Shown: piece after piece, positions 8,361 to 34,655 of the stretch
Layout: every line of letters starts with the position of its first letter
Numbering within the stretch: position 1 is the first letter of the stretch
Origin: a virus
Length of the DNA stretch: 38,139 nt
Virus record (IMG/VR): IMGVR_UViG_3300046012_000303
Coordinates: 1 to 38,139 of that record
Strand: one strand, 5' to 3'
The notes under the pieces: model-generated
What the model was told of the DNA's origin: nothing
The model's database searches: none
The model's input: the letters and a program-made list of their open reading frames with translations, nothing else
Program-made: the position numbers and the translations under genes

Positions 8361-8638
8361 TGAAACGTGAAACCGAGGACGGCTTCATTGGCGATGGGGG
8401 CACGGCTGGCTCGAAGCCAAAATGCGCTGGCACTGAAAAGGGTGGCATGTATCCGCCCGACGGTGGTCTTCGTGAACCAACCCGTTCGCTCTACGAAACC
8501 ACGAGCCTGCGTCAAGTCGTGCGACAACACTTCCTCGGCAACGCTGGTTCTCGCATGATCGACGGCGGTTCGGTCTTTCTCGGCGCCGGCGGCTGCACCT
8601 ACGTTGATGGTGATATCGACGGCGGCTCCGTCATCTAA
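8357..8638 (+). CDS. hypothetical Gly-rich protein (93 aa)
   Basis: The gene overlaps the terminase stop (ATGATGA) and its own stop overlaps the portal start (TAATG), so it is locked into the packaging operon. The protein is Gly-rich, notably in the last third (DGGSVFLGAGGCTYVDGDIDGG), which looks like short beta strands separated by turns. Position suggests a small head-completion or portal-associated protein, but no family is recognised. Confidence 0.7.
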   Translation: MMKRETEDGFIGDGGTAGSKPKCAGTEKGGMYPPDGGLREPTRSLYETTSLRQVVRQHFLGNAGSRMIDGGSVFLGAGGCTYVDGDIDGGSVI

Positions 8639-10137
8639 TGGCTGGCACCGGTCTCCTCAACAAGGTGATGGCGATCGTTCTTCCGCGCACGCAGAAGAAG
8701 GGTGGCCTGTCACTCACTGGCACGTTCACGCCGGCCGCTGCGACGGCTGTCCTTCCGACACCGGCGTTCCAAGATCATCTCACAGACATCTTCGCCACAC
8801 GTCAGGCGTCCGACAGTCGGACTCTGATGCAGCTGCTCGCAACCCAAGACCCCGACGTCTCGGCCGCGTTCAACGCATATCTGACGACCGCGAACACACC
8901 GATGGTGATGTACGCGAAGAATATGGACGGCTCGATAGACCCGACCGCCACACAGCAGCTGCAGCAGATCATCCTGCTGCTGACGAAGCAGTTCGATTAC
9001 ACGCAGGGTTTCCAACTACGCCGTTCACTCGAGACCATCTGCACCGAGCAGCGGTACATGGTCCTGATGCGTGGTGCGATTGCGAACGAGCTGGTCTTCG
9101 ACAAGAACCTATCGCCTTACGATGTCCGTATGACGGACCCCAAGTTCCTGTTCTGGTGGGAAAAGCTACCCGGCCAATACAAGCCCGAGCTGCGCCAAGC
9201 TGGCCAGATCATTGAGCTGGACATCCCTTCGTTCTTCACGTCGTTCTACCACCGTGATCCGACGACCATTTATCCGAACAGCCACCTGGTTTCGGCGATC
9301 AACACCATTGCGGCTCGCCAGGAAGTCATCAACGATCTCTACCGCATCATGCGGATCACAGGGTTCCCTCGTCTCGATGTGACGATTGTTGAAGAGATCC
9401 TGCTTAAAAACGCACCAGCAAACATCAAAAATGACGTGGAGAAGCTGAAAGCCTGGAAAAACACCCGCATGAGTGAGATCGCGGGTAACGTCGCCAATTT
9501 GCGGCCTGATCAAGCGTTCATCCACCCTGACAGCGTCACGATGGGTATGGTGAACGACAAGGCGCCGGGTGCCCAGATGGACATCACTCCGGTCATCAAC
9601 ACGCTCAATGGCCAGAACCAAGCCGCTCTGAAGATCATGGCGACGATCATTGGTCGCGGTGAGAGCGGCGTGAACACGGCTTCGGTTGAGAGCCGGGTTT
9701 TTTCGATGAACTGCGACGAGTTGAACAAACCGCTCGCAGAACTCTGGTCGAATATGATGACGTTCGCCATCCGTCTGCAGGGTTTTCAGGGCTACGCCGA
9801 GGTTAAGTTTCTCCCTGCCGAGCTGCGCCCCGCCACCGAACTCGAGCCGATGCTCTCGATCAAGTCGTCGCGTCTGAAGCAGGACCTGTCGGAAGGCCTG
9901 ATCGCCGACGAAGAGTATCACTTGCAAATGTACAACAGGCTTCCGCCACCGGGCACGCCACAGCTCTCTGGGACCGGCTTCATGCAACCGCAGACCACTT
10001 CGGGTGTGCCTGACGCGAACGCAGGTACGGCGCCGAGCGCTGGCGGTGACAGTCTCGCACGTAGTGCGACGACCCCGGGTGCAAAGCAAGCGACATCAAA
10101 AGCGAATAAGACGGGTCCGGCGAATGCCAAAAAGTAG
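8638..10137 (+). CDS. portal protein (499 aa)
   Basis: The dodecameric portal forms the DNA entry channel at one capsid vertex and docks the terminase. The call rests on length, its place directly after the terminase, and the content: an Ala-rich N-terminus, a central alpha/beta region, a long helical stretch followed by QNQAALKIMATIIGRGESG (the usual stem/wing transition of portals) and a low-complexity Ala/Thr/Pro/Lys tail of about 60 residues. It begins in a TAATG overlap with the preceding gene, and its end is overlapped by the metallophosphoesterase gene. Confidence 0.85.
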   Translation: MAGTGLLNKVMAIVLPRTQKKGGLSLTGTFTPAAATAVLPTPAFQDHLTDIFATRQASDSRTLMQLLATQDPDVSAAFNAYLTTANTPMVMYAKNMDGSIDPTATQQLQQIILLLTKQFDYTQGFQLRRSLETICTEQRYMVLMRGAIANELVFDKNLSPYDVRMTDPKFLFWWEKLPGQYKPELRQAGQIIELDIPSFFTSFYHRDPTTIYPNSHLVSAINTIAARQEVINDLYRIMRITGFPRLDVTIVEEILLKNAPANIKNDVEKLKAWKNTRMSEIAGNVANLRPDQAFIHPDSVTMGMVNDKAPGAQMDITPVINTLNGQNQAALKIMATIIGRGESGVNTASVESRVFSMNCDELNKPLAELWSNMMTFAIRLQGFQGYAEVKFLPAELRPATELEPMLSIKSSRLKQDLSEGLIADEEYHLQMYNRLPPPGTPQLSGTGFMQPQTTSGVPDANAGTAPSAGGDSLARSATTPGAKQATSKANKTGPANAKK

Positions 10138-11260
10138 TGAGAAGAAAGTTCCACTCTCTGAGAACGAGCGTAAGTTTCACGCTAATTGGACAAAGGAGCA
10201 GTGCGTTGAGCATCTGCGCGCGATGGCCAAGGCCCATCCCGATCAGGTGATCTCTCGCAATTTCTTTCGAGTGCATTCCGATATCTCGGAAGCAACCTGG
10301 AACCGGTTCTTCGGAACCTTCCAGCAATTCAAGCGCTCGGCGGATATCACGCTCTCTCGCCATCAACATCGGCTCGAACTTGACGTGGCCAAGCACGCCG
10401 GCGCCGACAACTACCGCGAGATGAACGAGCAGAAGAAGGGGTGGGAAGACAAGTACCTACGCCCTAGCAAGTCTCGCTTCCAGACGATCGTCAGTGCGAG
10501 CGACATCCACGACAAAGAATGCGACCCGTTTCTACGCCGCGTCTTCATCGACACACTGAAGCGTGTTCAGCCCGAGAAGATCGTCCTCAACGGGGACATC
10601 TTCGATCTGCCCGAGTTCGGCAAGTTCTCCGTCGACCCCCGGGAGTGGGACGTCGTCGGCCGCATCCGCTGGGTGCACGAGTTCATGCGTGACATCCGCA
10701 AGGCCTGTCCGAACGCTGAAATCATCTTCGTCGAGGGCAATCACGAGTATCGGCTGCTGCGGCACATGTCCGAGGGCTCTCAGGCGATGAAGGTCGTGCT
10801 CGATGAGCTGCACGGTATGACAGTGCCGAAGCTCCTCGGCCTCACCGAGTTCGAGGTCAACTACATTTCCCGGTCGGACCTTGGCACCTTCACGGTCGCC
10901 GACACGAAAAAGGAAATCGCGAAGAACTACTACATCGCCTACGACGCGATCCTTTGTCATCACTTCCCCGAAGGGGAGCGGATGGGGTATCCCGGCTGGA
11001 ACGGGCACCACCATCGTCATCATTCGAGCAACCACTACTCGCCGGCCTTCGGTGCATACGAATGGCACCAGCTCGGTTGCGGTCACCGCCGGGCGGCGAC
11101 CTACTGTGCGGGTGAGAACTGGGGCTTAGGCTTCATGATCTGCCACGTCGACAAGCTCACCCGTCGCAGTCAGATGGAATACGTCCAGCTGCAAGACCAC
11201 GTTGTTGTTGGCGGACGTTGGTACACTCGGTCCGAACAAGAATTTGTGCATCATTCCTAA
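10124..11260 (+). CDS. calcineurin-like metallophosphoesterase with N-terminal HNR-like region (378 aa)
   Basis: The C-terminal 260 residues carry the metallophosphoesterase motifs in order: SDIHD (D127, H129), NGDIFD (D158), GNHE (N206, H207), CHHF (H279) and GHHHRHH (from H295). These bind two metals and hydrolyse phosphoester bonds. Residues about 22-75 end in SEATWNRFFGTFQQFKRSAD, which resembles the homing-endonuclease-associated repeat (S.tTw.r.FGsf), a DNA-binding helical module. The ATG at 10124, inside the portal gene's end, is the first start giving this architecture; its ribosome binding site is weak. The position between portal and structural genes is unusual. DNA repair, trimming of DNA ends or nucleotide metabolism are possible roles. 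Confidence 0.88.
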   Translation: MPKSSEKKVPLSENERKFHANWTKEQCVEHLRAMAKAHPDQVISRNFFRVHSDISEATWNRFFGTFQQFKRSADITLSRHQHRLELDVAKHAGADNYREMNEQKKGWEDKYLRPSKSRFQTIVSASDIHDKECDPFLRRVFIDTLKRVQPEKIVLNGDIFDLPEFGKFSVDPREWDVVGRIRWVHEFMRDIRKACPNAEIIFVEGNHEYRLLRHMSEGSQAMKVVLDELHGMTVPKLLGLTEFEVNYISRSDLGTFTVADTKKEIAKNYYIAYDAILCHHFPEGERMGYPGWNGHHHRHHSSNHYSPAFGAYEWHQLGCGHRRAATYCAGENWGLGFMICHVDKLTRRSQMEYVQLQDHVVVGGRWYTRSEQEFVHHS

Positions 11261-11334
11261 GTATAAAACTTCTTTGAACTAGGTGTTACTTGCAGGGTAC
11301 CAGTAGAGCATCTCGAACCTAGAGGTGTTTTACT

Positions 11335-11991
11335 ATGGCCGGCATGACTGATTACACCGCGACCGCGTTTCTCAAGTGGCTCTCCGGTCAGACGGCGATG
11401 CCGAGCCTTCCGACCCACGTCTATCTGGCGCTGTTCACGGCGGCTCCTGGCGATGCGAGCGGCTCCGCAGGCACGGAAGTCAGCGGCACTGGCTACGCCC
11501 GCGTCGCGATCGAGACCTTGATGGCGGTCCCGGCGAGCAGCGGCCCGACGAGCGATCAGAACAATGCAACCGTCTCGTTCGCGCAGGCCGGGTCCGATTG
11601 GGGCACCGTTGTTGCGTGGGCGCTCTTCGACGCGTCAACCGCTGGCAATCGTCTCGCTTGGGATTATCTGGGCGACAACCCGTGGTGCCCCTTCACCTGC
11701 ACGCTCGCCTCGCCCGGTGTCATCAACGCTCCCGGTATCACGTCGGGTTCGACACCGAACCTCGCGAACGGCGACAGCGTCGTGGTCACTGCCGAATTCG
11801 GTGGCACGCTCGCGACCGGCATGTCGGCTGGTACCGGCACCGTAGCGAGCTTGTCGAGCGACACCTTCAACATCGCTGAGAACACGACCTCGGTGGGCTC
11901 GGGCATGGTCCGCAAGATCACGCCGCAGGCGATCCCGAACGGTGTCACGGCCAGCTTCGCGTCCGGCAGCATCAAGCTGTTCGCGGCGTAA
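11335..11991 (+). CDS. tail-fibre-like structural protein (Gp77-type, 218 aa)
   Basis: The N-terminal half matches a widespread phage family annotated as tail fibre or Gp77: a short helix, then THVYLALFTAAPGDA, EVSGTGYARV and a later WGTVVAWALFD. In the usual family a short strand pair follows; here an extra Gly/Thr/Ser-rich segment of about 90 residues intervenes (about 118-205). GAGGTG precedes the ATG by seven bases. It heads a group of four fibre- or decoration-like genes between the portal region and the protease. A virion surface role is likely by family. Confidence 0.7.
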   Translation: MAGMTDYTATAFLKWLSGQTAMPSLPTHVYLALFTAAPGDASGSAGTEVSGTGYARVAIETLMAVPASSGPTSDQNNATVSFAQAGSDWGTVVAWALFDASTAGNRLAWDYLGDNPWCPFTCTLASPGVINAPGITSGSTPNLANGDSVVVTAEFGGTLATGMSAGTGTVASLSSDTFNIAENTTSVGSGMVRKITPQAIPNGVTASFASGSIKLFAA

Positions 11992-12001
11992 GGAGCAGTA
12001 G

Positions 12002-12745
12002 ATGCCTTGGGCTGCGCAAATTTCATCGCCGACGAAGGACGCGTCGAACGTCAACATCCTGTTGACGTTCGACTTCACCAACGCCGATACGGGCGAAAGT
12101 CAGACGCGAGTCGTGCCGAGTTCAACTTGGGACGCCGCCGCTATTGCTGCCTATGCGCAGATTATCATCGCGCAGCTTGACGCACGCGACGCAGCTTTTG
12201 CCGCGATCCAGACAGGAGCGGTGGCGATGCCTTCCGGCGTGACGACTGCGTTGCAAGCGGTATGGAGCCTGACCGCGCTCCCGACCGATGCTTCCGGCGA
12301 CGCGTTCGCCGATGGCGACACCGCAGCGCAGAAGCTCGTGAAGCTTAACGCGTGGACCGTCGCGGGACCAAAGCAGGACGTACCGTTCTCTAGCGTGATC
12401 GGCTACCTCGGCCTTCAGGGCAAGACCGCGATGTTGCAAGCTTTTGCTAAAACTGCACAAGCGGTGGAAAGCGGATCACAAACGCCGGCGCAGGTCGCGG
12501 CTATCTCTCTGGTGTCCACACTCGCCAACCCAAACGCGCAGGTCTTCCGCACGGCCGACGATACGGTCTATGCCGCTATCGGGACCATGCTTACAGCCCT
12601 TGTCTCGGATGAGGGTACCGGCCTTACGGCTGATGACAAAACGGCGCTCTTGGCACTTGCGGACAGCACTCTGCCGTGGTGGAAGTTTGTTGGTAGCGCC
12701 GCGCCTTTCAGCACGAGCGTTGTGGCCGCTGCCAGCCTGAGCTAG
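12002..12745 (+). CDS. hypothetical structural protein (247 aa)
   Basis: AGGAG precedes the ATG by seven bases, and the gene follows the Gp77-like gene closely. The protein is Ala-, Thr- and Ser-rich with few charged clusters. A beta-like N-terminal part (NVNILLTFDFTNADTG) is followed by mostly helical segments. Composition and location suggest a virion component, but I recognise no family. It ends four bases before the repeat-protein gene. Confidence 0.65.
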   Translation: MPWAAQISSPTKDASNVNILLTFDFTNADTGESQTRVVPSSTWDAAAIAAYAQIIIAQLDARDAAFAAIQTGAVAMPSGVTTALQAVWSLTALPTDASGDAFADGDTAAQKLVKLNAWTVAGPKQDVPFSSVIGYLGLQGKTAMLQAFAKTAQAVESGSQTPAQVAAISLVSTLANPNAQVFRTADDTVYAAIGTMLTALVSDEGTGLTADDKTALLALADSTLPWWKFVGSAAPFSTSVVAAASLS

Positions 12746-12749
12746 GGCG

Positions 12750-14435
12750 ATGAACTTTAGCTACGTTATAGGTGTAGCTGGTTCGGGCACGTTTAGCACC
12801 CTTACCACGAGTGCCATCGACACGACGGGCGCTGATCTTATTGTCATCGCGTTTTCCGGCGCTGTCTCGCCCACCATCACGGATAACAAAGGAAACACGT
12901 ACACCATGGCGGTGGCTAGTGCCGCCGGTGCCCCAGGTGAGCGCTCTCGCGTATACTTCTGTCAGAACCCAACGGTCGGCAGTGGGCACACGTTTACTGC
13001 AACTGCGAATTTTGGCCTTCCGTCAATATCGGTCGCTGCATACAGTGGCAGCGCAGCGTCACCCGTAGATGTCACGAGTTCATCTGCCACAACGTCGCCG
13101 GGGTCCGTAACGCCTACCGCCAACGACGAACTCTTAGTTTCGGGCGTTGCACTCAATACCACTTCGGCCGGTATCCCCACGATTAGTGGCGGTGGGTTTT
13201 CAACCGTTCGTCAGAGCCAAGCCTCAAGCGGTAGTTGGTATGGGTCTGCGCTGGCGGACAGCATTCAGACTACCGCCAGTGCCAGTAACCCCACATGGTC
13301 ATTTGGTGATGCTACAACCATTGTCTCCTTCAAACCTGCTGGTGGCGGTGGTGGCGGTTCCACTGTTGACCTCGCTGCGCGAGCTTACTTTGCATTACAG
13401 GGTCGCGTTCTTTCAGCCGCGAGCACCGCGCTTAAAGCTCGAAGCAAACTTAAACTAGCTGGCCGAGCGCAGCCCTCTCCGACTACGGATCTATCAGCTC
13501 GTTCCGAGATAGGCCTTCGTGCTCGTGCACCGGTAGCAGCGACTGCAGACCTTACTGCAATAACGCGTGTCAAACTCACCGGTAAGGCCCCTGTGGTCGC
13601 TTCCGCATCGCTCGCCGGCCGAACCGTGGCCCAAATCAAAAGCCGAGTTAACGCGGTTGGAACTGCGTCACTCGCAGCTCGCTCGAACATCACCACGCAA
13701 GGTCGGTTCTTCCTAACCCAAGGCCTCATCCTTCTGGCTGGCCGCACGATGCTGACGCTCCGTGGTCGAGCTGCTTCAACCAGCACTGCTACGCTTCATG
13801 CTCGTACGAATATCCAGGTGCCCGGCGCGGCCAAAGTGGAGGGGACGACCAGCCTCGCAGCCCGTACTCAGGTGTCCGCACATAGCCGGGTGTTCAGCAC
13901 TCAGGGATTGATCCTTCTGACCGGTCGCATGATGCTGACATTGCGTGGTCGTGCGTCGACCCCAACCGGCACTGCCGCTCTTCATGCACGTACGAACGTT
14001 AAGGCATCCGGCCGGGCCAAAGCAGCCGGTGTGACGAGCCTTGCTGCACGAACTCGTGTATCGGCGAGAGGTCGCTTGTTCGCCACTCAAGGCGTGCTTC
14101 TGCTCGCCGGCCGTACGCTCTTGACGCTGCGTGGCCGAGTGGCAACCCCAACAGGTGTGGCGTCTCTTCATGCTCGCACAGCCCTTAAATCCAAAGGCAG
14201 CGCTCGTGTTTCCGCTACGACAAGTCTGCATGCACGCACCAAATTCACGGTACGTGGTCGGGCACGCACGACGGCAACCGGTGTTCTGCACGCTGCAGCT
14301 CGTACCATCTTCCGTCTCCAGGCCCGTGCCCGTATTCGCGTTCAGCAGACGGGTGAGGTGCTCCAAGGCCTCAGCATGACCGTGCTCCGTGCACCGGTTC
14401 GCCATTACGTCATTCGTGCGAAGAAGAAAGGTTGA
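12750..14435 (+). CDS. Arg-rich repeat protein with N-terminal beta-sandwich (561 aa)
   Basis: Residues 1-197 look like a beta-sandwich domain of the kind found in secreted and phage proteins (DNKGNTYTMA, FCQNPTVGSG). A six-glycine linker at 198-203 follows. Residues 205 to about 530 are about 16 tandem units of roughly 20 residues with the consensus sLaARt.v...GRa, each probably two short beta strands. From residue 305 the units form a 61-62-residue super-repeat (starts at 305, 366, 428, and again at 490). Within it the pattern is SLAART, GLILLAGRT.LTLRGR, SLHART. The repeat region is strongly basic with almost no acidic residues. A beta-solenoid stalk or nucleic-acid-binding fibre is possible. 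No family is recognised for the repeats. Confidence 0.8.
   Translation: MNFSYVIGVAGSGTFSTLTTSAIDTTGADLIVIAFSGAVSPTITDNKGNTYTMAVASAAGAPGERSRVYFCQNPTVGSGHTFTATANFGLPSISVAAYSGSAASPVDVTSSSATTSPGSVTPTANDELLVSGVALNTTSAGIPTISGGGFSTVRQSQASSGSWYGSALADSIQTTASASNPTWSFGDATTIVSFKPAGGGGGGSTVDLAARAYFALQGRVLSAASTALKARSKLKLAGRAQPSPTTDLSARSEIGLRARAPVAATADLTAITRVKLTGKAPVVASASLAGRTVAQIKSRVNAVGTASLAARSNITTQGRFFLTQGLILLAGRTMLTLRGRAASTSTATLHARTNIQVPGAAKVEGTTSLAARTQVSAHSRVFSTQGLILLTGRMMLTLRGRASTPTGTAALHARTNVKASGRAKAAGVTSLAARTRVSARGRLFATQGVLLLAGRTLLTLRGRVATPTGVASLHARTALKSKGSARVSATTSLHARTKFTVRGRARTTATGVLHAAARTIFRLQARARIRVQQTGEVLQGLSMTVLRAPVRHYVIRAKKKG
13662..14216 (+). repeat. three tandem ~185-bp coding super-repeats
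   Basis: Within the repeat-protein gene, intervals 13662-13844, 13845-14030 and 14031-14216 encode the same 61-62-residue pattern, and a fourth copy begins at 14217. Protein similarity is much clearer than DNA identity, so the duplications are old and selected at the protein level. Confidence 0.7.
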
Positions 14436-14438
14436 GCC

Positions 14439-14792
14439 ATGCCGTTTGTGAGAAACTTCCCCGAGATGGACGAGGGTGACACGCAGACGATCGGCATCGA
14501 CTTCGTCGACGAGATCCCATCTGGGGTAACGATAAGCGGTTCACCAATCTGTGTGATCGAAGTTTCGAAGGGCACGGACCCAGACAAGGACAGCCGCATC
14601 ACTGAAGGGCCTGTCGTCCAGACCGCATCGACCACCACCGGCGGCTCGGGCGTCGAGAACATGGCGATCCTGGTGACGATTAGTAATCCTCCCTCGACCG
14701 TCGACGAGTACATGGTCCAGCTCAAATGCCTATTGAGCAATGGCAACACGGCCGACGGCTGGGGCCATCTTCCCATCAAACACCCGAAGTAA
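14439..14792 (+). CDS. small beta-rich structural protein, fibre-adaptor-like (117 aa)
   Basis: The protein resembles short immunoglobulin-like phage proteins that accompany Gp77-type genes and are annotated as fibre-tail adaptors: an N-terminal strand pair (TQTIGIDFVDEI), a central SGTDPD-like region (here VSKGTDPDKDS), GSGVENMAILVTI and a late YMVQLKCLLSNG. It starts three bases after the repeat protein's stop codon, with no strong ribosome binding site, so it is probably coupled to it. Family match is tentative. Confidence 0.6.
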   Translation: MPFVRNFPEMDEGDTQTIGIDFVDEIPSGVTISGSPICVIEVSKGTDPDKDSRITEGPVVQTASTTTGGSGVENMAILVTISNPPSTVDEYMVQLKCLLSNGNTADGWGHLPIKHPK

Positions 14793-14875
14793 AAAGAAGT
14801 TAAATAATTCTTTGAACCGGCCCCCTTTACTCGGTTACTTGTTCATTACTTGTAACCCTTCGAGTAAATCGAGCC

Positions 14876-16042
14876 GTGGCAAAGCAGGTTCAAAAGACAC
14901 CCGAGATCCTCTCGCAGATGACGAAAGTCCTCGGCGACGGTGTGGATGTTCAGAACCTCCCAGTTTGGGAGGCCGTTGCCGCTAACTCGCTCCCCCTTCG
15001 TAAGAAGGGTTCGATCTTCGAGAAGGCCGTCATTCAGCAGTCCACGATGACTGCGCTCTCCGACGCGATGAACGCGGGCGGCGCTCCGATGCAGGTCATG
15101 CACGACGGCGGTCAGTTGCCGGTTGGCAAGGCCTTCATGGCACAGATGGCCGGCGGTGACGCAGCGCCCGAACTGCGCGTTCTCTTTTACGTCGACCCGA
15201 CCAAATCAGACTTCATCGCGCAGTTGGACAACTCGACGATTGATGAAGTCAGCCTGGGGTTCATGGCCGCACACTTGCTCTGCAGCGAGTGTGGCTGGGA
15301 CTACATGGGTGACGACGCCACGTCCGCGAACCTTTGGGATCGCGTCTGTGCAAATGACCATGCGATCGGCCAGGACGGTGTTCACCTGAACCTCTCGGGT
15401 CTTGATCGTCTCTACGAGCTGTCGCTCGTCAGTACCGGTGCTGTTCAAGGCTCGAAGATCGTGCCGCGCAGCAAGCAAACCAACATGAGCGACATGGGTA
15501 GGCGTCTCGCCGCCAGCGGCGTCGACCTAAACGCCATCATCTTCGACACCAAGTTGAAGTTGTCGTCCGACCCTCGTGCCTTAGCGGCGTCTTCCCAGGA
15601 GAAACAAGTAATGGCTGATGTGAATATGGAGCTGATCACTCAGCTCACCGATGCGAAGTCGGCAGGCGCGGTGAAGGATGTGAAGATCACCGAGCTGAGC
15701 GGTCAGGTCACTGCGCTCACCGCGCAGGTCACCGAGCTGACGGCGAAGGTTGCGGCTTTCCCAAAAGACGCGGCCGAAGTTCAAGTGAAACTTGACGCGA
15801 GCGTCAAGCAGACCGAAGCGGCCCTCACGTTCCTCCGTGATCAGGCGACCAAGATCGCGAACGCCACCGGTGGTGACGTGTCGAAGATCGCCGAGATGTC
15901 TGTCGAGGACCTGAGCAAGTCGATCGTTGAGGCGCAAGCGAAGCTCGCCAGCCTTATCCCGGTTGGCGGCGTAACGCCGACTACCACGAAAACCGACGCC
16001 GACGCGAAGCCTTCTCGCGCGGCCTTCAAGACCCGCGACTAA
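14876..16042 (+). CDS. prohead protease fused to scaffold (388 aa)
   Basis: The N-terminal 200 residues look like a U35-type prohead serine protease: MHDGGQLPVGK supplies a His (H76), EVSLGF a Ser (S126), and RLYELSLVSTGA matches the E.SLV motif before the family's end. Residues 134-170 hold an insertion with C136, C139, C158, H162 and H170, a possible zinc site not usual in the family. Residues 246-345 are helical with a coiled-coil pattern and no Cys, as expected of a scaffold, and end in a Lys/Asp/Thr-rich tail. The protein should direct capsid assembly and then clear the scaffold. The start is GTG with a poor ribosome binding site. Compare lambda C/Nu3. Confidence 0.8.
   Translation: MAKQVQKTPEILSQMTKVLGDGVDVQNLPVWEAVAANSLPLRKKGSIFEKAVIQQSTMTALSDAMNAGGAPMQVMHDGGQLPVGKAFMAQMAGGDAAPELRVLFYVDPTKSDFIAQLDNSTIDEVSLGFMAAHLLCSECGWDYMGDDATSANLWDRVCANDHAIGQDGVHLNLSGLDRLYELSLVSTGAVQGSKIVPRSKQTNMSDMGRRLAASGVDLNAIIFDTKLKLSSDPRALAASSQEKQVMADVNMELITQLTDAKSAGAVKDVKITELSGQVTALTAQVTELTAKVAAFPKDAAEVQVKLDASVKQTEAALTFLRDQATKIANATGGDVSKIAEMSVEDLSKSIVEAQAKLASLIPVGGVTPTTTKTDADAKPSRAAFKTRD
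15611..16042 (+). CDS. nested scaffold protein from internal start (143 aa)
   Basis: An in-frame ATG inside the protease gene (residue M246) is preceded by AGGAG nine bases upstream, a better initiation site than that of the full-length gene. Starting there would yield the helical scaffold alone, in excess over the protease-scaffold fusion, as with Nu3 within the C gene of lambda. The product begins MADVNMELITQL and runs to the shared stop. The arrangement is read from the sequence; independent expression is inferred. Confidence 0.6.
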   Translation: MADVNMELITQLTDAKSAGAVKDVKITELSGQVTALTAQVTELTAKVAAFPKDAAEVQVKLDASVKQTEAALTFLRDQATKIANATGGDVSKIAEMSVEDLSKSIVEAQAKLASLIPVGGVTPTTTKTDADAKPSRAAFKTRD

Positions 16043-16493: not shown

Positions 16494-17654
16494 ATGAATT
16501 TCCTTCCTCTCACCGATATCAAAAAGCGTGCCGCCGGTGAGGTTCTCAAGGGCCTCCTCAGTGCATCGCCGAACGAGTCCATGGATGCCGGCGTCAAGCT
16601 GTGCCGCGATGCGGCGCAGTACGGTGTCAGCCTCCCGGACTTCCTCAAGCTCTCGATCAAAGGCGAGGGCGATCTCAGTGGCTTCGAAATGGCCCTCTCC
16701 GAGCTGAACCTCCCGGTTCGCAACGACTTCGCGAACGGTGTGGTGCTGCAGGCGGCGTCCGAGACGTTCCAGACGTTCCCGGGTACCCGGGCGATTTTCC
16801 CGCCGGTGATCGATGAGATCCTTCGCTGGGCGAACCGTCAGGACCAGTTCGAGAAGATCGAAGCCCTGGTCGGCAACAGCCGTCCGATGTCGGGCAACGA
16901 GCTGATCTCGACTGTCGTCACCGACGACAGTGGCGAGCGCGACACCTTCACGGTGGCGGAAGGTGCCAACATTCCGGTGCAGTCGATCCGTGCAACGGAA
17001 CACGCCGTGAAGATGTACAAGCACGGTTCGGCGATCCGTACCACGTACGAATTCAGCCGTCGTGCCTCGCTCGACATGCTGACCCCGTATGCGGCCCGCA
17101 TTGCCCGTCAGATGGAGATCTCGAAGGTTGCTCACGCGACCAACCTTCTGGTCAACGGCGACGGCATCAACGCGGGTGCGACTGTCATCAACCAGTCGAG
17201 CTACAACTCGGCGACCGGTATCACTGCGGTCGCCGGCACCCTCTCGTGGCAGAATCTCCTGTACTGGCTGGTTCAGCGTGCGAAGGCGGGTGTGGCCGTC
17301 GACACGGTGGTTGGTAACTGGGATGCGGCCTTCCAGTGGGGCATGCTCTTCTCGGTGACGACCACGAACGCGGCGGGCACCACGGCGGCTGCGAACCTGC
17401 AAGCGGTGGCGAAGCAGGTCGGCAATCTGACGATCCCGTTCCCGACGTTCGCGGTCTCTTCGCAGGCTCCCGCCAGCAAGTTGATCGGTATCACCAAGGC
17501 AGAGACCCTGGAAGAGTTGACCGAAAACGGCTCGCAGATCAGCGAGAACGAGCGTTCGATCCGCAACCAGACGATCGTCTACACCAAGACCGAGAACACC
17601 GGCTATCGCCTCGTCTACGGCGATACCCGCTCGATCTTCAACTACAACGCCTAA
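16494..17654 (+). CDS. major capsid protein, HK97-like (386 aa)
   Basis: This is the shell subunit. Its size, its location after protease/scaffold and decoration genes, and the strong terminator immediately downstream support the call. The N-terminal 80 or so residues are helical and may be a delta-domain removed by the protease. The rest follows the HK97 pattern: QTFPGTRAIFPP, a long E-loop region around FTVAEGANIPVQ, a spine helix region ASLDMLTPYAARIARQ, and an A-domain ending in YRLVYGDTRSIFNYNA. GGAGG precedes the ATG by ten bases. Codon use is strongly biased, as expected of the most abundant protein. Confidence 0.85.
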   Translation: MNFLPLTDIKKRAAGEVLKGLLSASPNESMDAGVKLCRDAAQYGVSLPDFLKLSIKGEGDLSGFEMALSELNLPVRNDFANGVVLQAASETFQTFPGTRAIFPPVIDEILRWANRQDQFEKIEALVGNSRPMSGNELISTVVTDDSGERDTFTVAEGANIPVQSIRATEHAVKMYKHGSAIRTTYEFSRRASLDMLTPYAARIARQMEISKVAHATNLLVNGDGINAGATVINQSSYNSATGITAVAGTLSWQNLLYWLVQRAKAGVAVDTVVGNWDAAFQWGMLFSVTTTNAAGTTAAANLQAVAKQVGNLTIPFPTFAVSSQAPASKLIGITKAETLEELTENGSQISENERSIRNQTIVYTKTENTGYRLVYGDTRSIFNYNA

Positions 17655-33400: not shown

Positions 33401-34194
33401 TCGTCACCTCGGACGAGCAAACCGGCGGCTACGCTGGGACTAAGATAGACACTGAGGTGGATGCTGGAACGCTGATCCTTTCTACGGGCAAGCAACGCGG
33501 TGAGTACATTCATCCGATCTCTCTCGGCGGCACGGTCTACGCTCGTAATGTCTTGACGTTTGATTTCGATGCTGTTGTCCGCAGCGGTCTGACCTGGGAC
33601 GACATGACGTTCCCCTGGACTGATCCTCGAGCCCATCGGCCATGGGTCCTTGGCGGTGACATCGGCTCGGTGGTGGTGAAGCGACAGGTGTCGTTCGAGA
33701 AAGCCTTGGCGCCACCTGTGATCGAGGGTTTCGACCTCAATGGTGCACTCACCGGCCTCAATGGCACGACAGCTTCGAGCAGCACCGGTGCGGCCTACGA
33801 AGCGGGCCGCTTCCGGCAGGGTCTCAGTATCACCCCGGGGACGTCAACGATCGCCTACACCATGACGATCCCCTCGTCGTTTAATTTAAGTGTCTGGGTC
33901 CGGCCGCGTGACCCAGCCGTAGACCTGACGATCCTGACGCTGCACGGCAGCTCGGGTGATCTGATCCTCAAGTACGATGGGACGGCGAAACAGTTCTACC
34001 TAATCGACCCGTCAAGCAATCGTGTCACTTCACCGACAGTGGTTTTCGAAGCCGGTGACCCCGTGCTGATCGCCATCGTCCAGACCTCGACCACCCGCCG
34101 TATCCTGGTCGGTATCACCAAGGAAGAGGCCGTGGTTTCGAACAGCGGGGCCTTCACCCCCGTGGGCGCCTTCACCGATCTGAGGTTCTACTGA
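30478..34194 (+). CDS. central tail tip / host specificity protein, J-like (1238 aa)
   Basis: A lambda gpJ-type protein: the N-terminus has SQDTIEVVLGISEGPIKGL, and the middle holds the tail-tip core (LFLNELVNNRTWGMSA, GTFNALFYDNLDG). Two fibronectin type III modules are at about 785-880 and 880-970 (GYEIRRGSNW and HYTIREGDDW). The last 155 residues look like a LamG/concanavalin-type fold and probably contact the host receptor. It forms the tail tip and controls host range. The fibre genes follow with a one-base overlap of stop and start (TGATG). Confidence 0.88.
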   Translation: MRPLIFAKGSAPAPPPAPTRTPDNLRSQDTIEVVLGISEGPIKGLVTDGGIPAAASFRVGDTTLANSDGSFNFPNFSLTEYKAQGASADVIPLALGGNASSHSVGVNLATNTPVTRTTVQHSINYIDIRLAFSQLYKQNDQGIFNNDVQFKVEYKPTSSAQWTTFQALNTVTTTLTQQLPPSGGGFFEGLMAAFITIWNAQAPTITSEVVSDVFDLNGKTTSTYVKQLRVPVPVIDDTWDIRITKLSAASDGVANFTDMQWESYQEIVAQNLSFDNLACIRLYGTASDQFSSLPDFTGIYDGLIMDVPSNYDPIARTYTGVWDGTWKKDWTNNPALFLNELVNNRTWGMSAYFPIQIDPADVYAAAQWCDGQVPDGQGGTQPRYTFNMYITDPQSGQDFARYVAGTFNALFYDNLDGTARLIVDKDDAAVHLITPENTLADPGFQYSYTDSLQRFNDYSVAFTNPDLIYNTDYRRVFDQPDIDLNGSIPDNFVAVGCTNAHESIRRAKYKLISNLTEKEMVTFRMTRLGAYVREWDVALICDPLMGYSMTGRIKGLDDTRKIITLREPIYFEVGVTYPVRFWSPSEGIITRTISAESGSQFTFSVDEALPDDLPEFAEFSIEQEGSGFGVPKPYRVISNEAVDGVPDVYEINCIEINRNKWNDADNVTDTGVPQYSFVPNPLRIPSPDDVQFAPHYVKALKQLWLDVNPTFNPNTYRFYNGQFDVYSRAHGTTGWFKWPLLNGNTIVNHPEGDYDFAVTPHNYLGGVQDVDATTVWRYTVAYPVTPNPPVADFTVAQSPAGLEWNWTATTAPDNEGYEIRRGSNWASAELVVTDLQSTHYVQSKTAAASYTFLIADFFTVNGTRVYSNATSVTITLPFPSAVKDFVVTSNLNMLNGNWTPNPETNINHYTIREGDDWSASTVVIEQLYVTHFQVPSNYKKTRTFWIKAVDNSGNESQQAAAYIFQTVPTDDYNIIVTSDEQTGGYAGTKIDTEVDAGTLILSTGKQRGEYIHPISLGGTVYARNVLTFDFDAVVRSGLTWDDMTFPWTDPRAHRPWVLGGDIGSVVVKRQVSFEKALAPPVIEGFDLNGALTGLNGTTASSSTGAAYEAGRFRQGLSITPGTSTIAYTMTIPSSFNLSVWVRPRDPAVDLTILTLHGSSGDLILKYDGTAKQFYLIDPSSNRVTSPTVVFEAGDPVLIAIVQTSTTRRILVGITKEEAVVSNSGAFTPVGAFTDLRFY

Positions 34195-34655
34195 TGACCG
34201 TCACACACGTTCTCTCGGATGCGATCGTCAGCGTCGGTGACATCGACACCGCCACGTTCCTGAACATGCTCACGAACGGGGGTCCTGCTGGGTATGGACC
34301 GTTCCAGGCGTTCATCGACGGCGACTATCAGTACGACAATGCAGTGTTCCGCGAGGTTCTGACTGCGGCCGGCCCTGACCGGCCTCGCATACAGAACCTC
34401 AAGCTGGCGGTCGATGTGCCTGATGTAATCGATCGGGGAACGGCAGTCATCGACAGCACTGGCACGCTGACGGTTACTTTCGCCCGTACCTTTATCACGA
34501 CACCCCAAGTCGCAATTGGCAGTGAGGTGGTTGATGATGACGTGCTCGTGAAAATCACTTCGAAGACAAATACTTCATTCACAATTACCGCAAAACATAC
34601 GTCTACTGGTGACCCGGCCACAGCGACTGTGGGCTGGATTGCTCACGGGTATTAA
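34194..34655 (+). CDS. small fibre protein with lectin-like C-terminus (153 aa)
   Basis: The C-terminal 75 residues resemble phage fibre tips of the H-type-lectin-like kind: strands TLTVTFARTFITTPQVAIGSE and SFTITAK, closing with ATATVGWIAHGY. The N-terminus is a short alpha/beta part that may bind J. Trimerisation and receptor binding are inferred. It lies directly after the J-like gene, so it is probably part of the adhesion apparatus. Confidence 0.65.
   Translation: MTVTHVLSDAIVSVGDIDTATFLNMLTNGGPAGYGPFQAFIDGDYQYDNAVFREVLTAAGPDRPRIQNLKLAVDVPDVIDRGTAVIDSTGTLTVTFARTFITTPQVAIGSEVVDDDVLVKITSKTNTSFTITAKHTSTGDPATATVGWIAHGY

Follow-up and report, generated by a model that had tools for sequence, protein, structure and literature searches.

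Fibre I of Ralstonia phage GP4, treated by Zheng et al. in 2023, is said to be built of gp80 dimers joined by an elongated rope protein. In Alishewanella phage LSH1, genes gp34-gp36 form an optional extra structural module of three genes, encoding a payload protein with a poorly predicted C-terminal domain, a homologue of the GP4 fibril and an Ig-fold protein (PMC13243795). The head of this payload is a beta-helix resembling polysaccharide lyases, and the nature of the poorly predicted C-terminal region was left unsaid in the study of the module (PMC13243795). The DNA analyzed here (the window) is an IMG/VR virus record of 38,139 bases, from a phage related to Seussvirus and to Achromobacter phages 2-1 and JWF. 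It carries a Gp80 homologue and, one gene away, a protein with an arginine-rich array of ~20-residue repeats (Table 1).

The terminase, portal-position, phrog_37797, major capsid and tail genes of the window are syntenic with those of Caulobacter phage Seuss and Achromobacter phage 2-1. Between the portal and scaffold genes lies a four-gene cassette (11335-14792), composed of genes for the Gp80 homologue, a 247-aa protein, the repeat protein and a 117-aa protein, in this order. The Gp80 homologue also matches the head protein family phrog_240 (E 2.6e-17). A Gp80 homologue matches chain a of PDB entry 8jou, which is present there as 10 chains. Chain D of the same entry is matched by gp57 of Burkholderia phage BcepIL02, and the comparison of gp57 with the 117-aa protein gave z 1.8, with 28 of 500 shuffles scoring as well.

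The cassette is absent from Seuss, 2-1 and five other phages (L092, L093, L095, L096 and L097), in which the portal gene leads directly to the phrog_37797 gene, save for one small reverse-strand gene in Seuss. In the closest relative, L091 (capsid protein 80% identical), homology extends through the phosphoesterase to about position 11270 and resumes at 14827; the genes between are unrelated, and the window repeat protein has no match in the whole L091 record. Since most relatives lack these genes and L091 has unrelated ones at the same position, region 11335-14792 was recognized as an exchangeable cassette. Its replacement in L091 (L091:4336-8280) encodes two proteins with signal-peptide-like N-termini; one replacement protein, of 847 aa, has apparent internal domain repeats, and none of the proteins of this region matched Pfam or PHROGs. 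An otherwise unrelated phage (L067) has the same gene order, from portal through Gp80, a small gene and an N-domain protein with 20-residue repeats to scaffold. The window also encodes a lambda-J-like tail protein, adjoined by a protein with an H-type lectin domain (34194-34655), and the cassette thus supplements a tail tip of the usual kind.

Table 1. Features of the repeat protein and of its genomic surroundings in the window.
Feature	Position	Strand	Remarks
Portal-position gene, left neighbour	8638..10137	+	inferred from position after terminase and from synteny
Calcineurin-like metallophosphoesterase, flanking the variable cassette	10124..11260	+	conserved in close relative L091; start codon inferred
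Gp80 homologue (Podophage GP4 fiber I protein), predicted fibril subunit	11335..11991	+	Pfam PF23140, E 2.5e-26
247-aa cassette protein	12002..12745	+	no family found
561-aa protein: beta-sandwich, poly-Gly hinge, ~16 basic repeats of ~20 residues	12750..14435	+	
N-terminal beta-sandwich domain (N-domain), residues 1-197	12750..13340	+	pLDDT about 95
Poly-Gly hinge, residues 198-204	13341..13361	+	
Repeat array, residues 205-540, 16 units	13362..14369	+	basic residues confined to even columns
Super-repeat 1, residues 304-364	13659..13841	+	
Super-repeat 2, residues 365-426	13842..14027	+	
Super-repeat 3, residues 427-488	14028..14213	+	
117-aa acidic protein	14439..14792	+	same relative position as BcepIL02 gp57 / PDB 8jou chain D
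phrog_37797 protein, probable scaffold, right neighbour	14876..16042	+	PHROGs match; scaffold name by position and synteny
Major capsid protein	16494..17654	+	phrog_3922; 51% identity to Achromobacter phage 2-1

An earlier note on this DNA had described the open reading frame, its hinge, about 16 units of ~20 residues, three super-repeats beginning near residue 305 and a very basic composition, and our analysis reproduced this architecture throughout. Self-similarity of the protein peaks at lag 20 (z 8.3) and lag 62 (z 10.8) against composition shuffles. Residues 205-561 contain 44 Arg and 15 Lys versus 3 Asp and 3 Glu (59 basic and six acidic residues), this tail being the most basic among all N-domain relatives examined. 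The poly-Gly hinge is found in several of these relatives too.

The super-repeats share 57-63% protein identity. At four-fold sites under identical residues, super-repeats 1 and 2 agree in 16 of 28 cases (57%), while super-repeat 3 agrees with the first in 10 of 30 and with the second in 7 of 32, the chance value being 0.26. Tandem Repeats Finder detected no DNA tandem repeat in the array, its sole match being a 19-bp stretch coding for poly-Gly. As the four-fold sites of super-repeat 3 stand at chance despite the conserved protein, the array consists of old duplications kept by selection at the protein level. When the units were aligned, even columns contained all 53 basic residues and odd columns none, a pattern reached in 0 of 20000 shuffles, and hydrophobic residues occupied 104 odd versus 40 even positions. 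Columns 5, 11 and 17 are hydrophobic in every unit, and arginine is near-invariant at two outward sites. This strict in/out alternation was missed in the earlier note. As judged from the sequence, the repeat unit is a strictly alternating beta element, and the array is a selected protein feature encoded in the + frame, with recent slippage excluded. That it might instead be a translation artefact or a non-functional low-complexity tail, as the low confidence of its predicted fold and the lack of any homologue found for the exact repeat could suggest, deserves hardly any credence, since both the chance-level four-fold sites under 57-63% protein identity and the alternation of basic and hydrophobic residues require selection.

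In the full-length AlphaFold model, the N-domain is a confident beta-sandwich, and each repeat unit forms three short strands, whose register is constant in nearly every unit, with the AR and GR motifs at the corners. The pLDDT of the repeats was 50-65 in this model and averaged 51 in a second model of eight units, and a shifted self-alignment used as AlphaFold input did not raise it. Neither the full nor the repeat model found a PDB fold match reaching E 0.001; the non-significant matches of the eight-unit model were mostly beta-solenoids. The earlier note had considered a beta-solenoid and proposed structure prediction as a check: the periodic, three-stranded pattern of the models and the strict alternation agree with a beta-type repeat, but the confidence is low, and the predicted solenoid is a lead, short of a result. 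Against PDB, the N-domain likewise gave no fold match at E 0.001, and its profile matches to antibody light chains were weak (best E 0.0087). The full model had 47 matches at E up to 0.001 in BFVD, several of which are minor tail proteins of mycobacteriophages and Gordonia phages, aligned along the length of the N-domain.

These models raise the alternative that the array is a stalk standing by itself, a three-sided beta-solenoid with one unit per coil and arginine at two corners, serving as a spacer for the N-domain as binding head, and that Gp80 is a mere neighbour. In favour of such a stalk are the constant register of the three strands, the corner positions of AR and GR, and the solenoids among the weak fold matches. 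We nevertheless consider it somewhat unlikely, as the pLDDT is low, all PDB matches fall short of E 0.001, ladders of arginine would need counter-ions or a ligand, and the association with Gp80 would be left unexplained.

The repeat gave no significant profile match in Pfam, NCBIfam or PHROGs, and the N-domain belongs to no family of these three collections. The claim of the earlier note that it knew no described family is therefore borne out there, and the profile search that it had recommended for the repeat unit led to no characterized family. No homologue of the exact repeat came from phage tblastn at E values up to 10, from two scans of IMG/VR with proteins and profiles, or from plasmids, and a scan with a degenerate AR/GR pattern yielded none among the matches listed; low-complexity filtering by BLAST may hide repeats. 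No signal was obtained when the profile of the repeat was compared with other N-domain tails, and the controls were unstable. Only two other repeat proteins were enriched for a motif derived from the repeats, with 2 and 3 matches, and two more had single matches.

The N-domain has 94 relatives in IMG/VR, and 85 ORFs matched it among the fetched loci. Tandem repeats with the strongest lag at 20-24 residues or a multiple, and of unrelated sequence, are carried by 14 of 29 distinct tails of at least 70 aa, the window protein included, and most of the remaining members stop shortly past the domain. A Gp80 homologue is present in 8 of 80 N-domain loci versus 3 of 120 contigs from the pattern scan. 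One N-domain protein, with GIASAEALGTPTV-type 20-residue repeats, is encoded in a Variovorax genome (L220), and this isolate alone has the domain among 399 genomes of its order. The tails of N-domain relatives are acidic or neutral, which bears on a further suggestion of the earlier note, namely that the protein is an internal virion component binding packaged DNA through its arginine face. The highly positive charge (+14.5 per 100 aa) and the location among head genes would fit this role, yet the neutral or acidic tails elsewhere, the exchange of the gene within a fibre cassette, its linkage to Gp80 and the minor tail proteins among the BFVD matches make it very improbable.

A match to a Gp80 homologue is present in 532 phage records, and Gp80 matches were counted in 461 records of Mycobacterium phages. 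We fetched the surroundings of Gp80 homologues in 16 other annotated phage records and searched them for repeats at z>5, a threshold passed by 1 of 43 background ORFs. A nearby gene with 20-22-residue repeats was present in eight of the 16 (ctjtQ328, ct2t2046, MEP401, C72C1, Ochrobactrum OH, BcepIL02, Spoonbill and DB2), in seven of them adjacent to the Gp80 homologue and in DB2 a few genes downstream. Weak repeats (z about 3) were found in three records (phiM5, CRP-4 and PVJ1) and no passing repeat in five (Mvi-JY20, ACP17, Venkman, ctXG6705 and Lietuvens). In BcepIL02, gp55 (Gp80), gp56 (20-residue repeats, z 8.3) and gp57 are all annotated as virion-associated, and the Gp80 protein of phiM5 was detected in the particle proteome. 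When the window repeats were compared with the eight Gp80-adjacent ones, three scored z 4.0-4.7 and the rest lay at or near noise; what these repeats have in common is their period, with weak sequence homology across phages. Since genes next to Gp80 in many phages also encode ~20-residue repeats, though of other sequence, the architecture of the window protein is not unique, and its unusual part is the arginine-rich face.

Several of these neighbourhoods have features of their own. The repeat protein of ct2t2046 is named a serine-rich adhesin. In Mycobacterium phage Spoonbill, the repeat gene lies on the upstream side, and gp20 (L231:4739-5941), beside the Gp80 homologue, is a minor tail protein with 20-residue repeats; given the 461 Mycobacterium phage records, the pairing may be common in this group. 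In Octadecabacter virus DB2, the 22-residue repeat protein (L224:6208-7734) is of virion type, and its ribonuclease E annotation is probably wrong. Basic arrays beside Gp80 were seen in L213 (net +11 to +12 per 100 aa) and L019 (+7.5). In L213 (L213:4899-6836), the Gp80 homologue is followed by a Gly-rich ORF and, beyond a stop codon in the same frame, by an independent R/K-rich array of 20-residue repeats, open to the contig end. Basic N-termini with 20-residue-like spacing and weak periodicity also occur beside Gp80 in ORF27 of Sporosarcina phage Lietuvens (L235:4370-5293, annotated DUF2313; +12 per 100 aa) and in PVJ1_58 of Psychrobacillus phage PVJ1 (L236:4327-5352, annotated putative portal protein; +14).

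Charge complementarity between the repeats and Gp80 was rejected (rho 0.28, p 0.30 across 16 pairs; the pairs of L066 and L067 are to be ignored, their reading frame having been wrong). Because the charge of Gp80 does not explain that of the repeats, a ligand outside the virion is weakly favoured. The same result bears on the idea that the arginine face is an assembly glue on acidic surfaces of the phage itself (capsid, Gp80, or the 247-aa and 117-aa proteins) and binds nothing on the host. The acidity of P0003, P0002 and P0004 (-3.2, -3.6 and -7.7 per 100 aa) is in its favour, but a mild acidity of Gp80 homologues is seen in nearly all phages, irrespective of repeat charge, and we regard such a glue as improbable.

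In our preferred reading, to which we give a probability of roughly one half, the window protein supplies the repeats of an accessory virion fibre that is exchangeable and of Gp80 type, being packed through its hydrophobic face and holding envelope polyanions with its arginine face. The repeat, its alternation, the selection on it, the exchange of the cassette and the association with Gp80 are shown by the present data, while the mode of packing, the assembly with Gp80 and the receptor chemistry are inferred. The virion module and surface or adhesin role envisaged in the earlier note gain support from a cassette that lies between the portal and scaffold genes and includes Gp80, from the alternation and from the regular, low-confidence solenoid model. 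A rope-like role is suggested by the matches of a Gp80 homologue to 8jou chain a and of gp57 to chain D, together with the rope reported for GP4. Each ~20-residue unit would be an amphipathic beta element with an inward face of hydrophobic and small residues (L-x-A-x-T-x-V-x-L-x-G-x-A). This face would pack either against the neighbouring coils of a solenoid or, if the array is a rope that links Gp80 subunits, against these subunits. On the opposite face, arginine at two nearly fixed sites and other basic residues would form rows of positive charge along the array, and the N-terminal beta-sandwich on its Gly hinge may be a head or docking domain. Positive charges on one face would probably stick to negatively charged bacterial surfaces; the basic face could thus keep the virion reversibly attached to envelope polyanions of the host (LPS or acidic capsule) before the lambda-J-type tail tip engages.

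More broadly, we tentatively suggest that Gp80 and ropes of ~20-residue repeats may constitute a widespread, undescribed class of accessory fibres, with one face of the unit retained for packing and the chemistry of the other free to vary; in this phage, the latter would be a polyanion-binding strip of arginine. Gp80-type proteins are left hypothetical in many phage genomes, and their link to a partner with a 20-residue period gives both a testable role. The arginine-face variant lends itself well to the question of whether the charge of phage fibres is adjusted to the chemistry of the host envelope.

Among known systems, the likeness to fibre I of Ralstonia phage GP4 (Gp80, PF23140, 8jou) lies in the Gp80 homologue of the cassette, and the 20-residue repeat chain would suit the part of the reported rope protein, for which a sequence search of PDB with two Gp80-adjacent repeat proteins found no chain. 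The window adds a beta-sandwich head and 16 arginine-rich units and, unlike the Podophage GP4, its phage is of siphovirus type with a lambda-J-like tail. BcepIL02 gp55-gp56-gp57 show the same succession of Gp80, a 20-residue-repeat protein and a small protein, but gp56 has no detected N-domain, a net charge of zero and repeats without detectable sequence similarity to those of the window. The Ig-like accessory domains of phages (Hoc, pb10 and N4 gp17) are comparable as optional beta-sandwich modules of the surface that presumably help in adhesion, whereas the N-domain was not matched to an Ig family and the repeats are a separate element. The nearest published parallel to the cassette is the LSH1 module, which differs in the beta-helix head of its payload and in its location after the lysis genes (PMC13243795).
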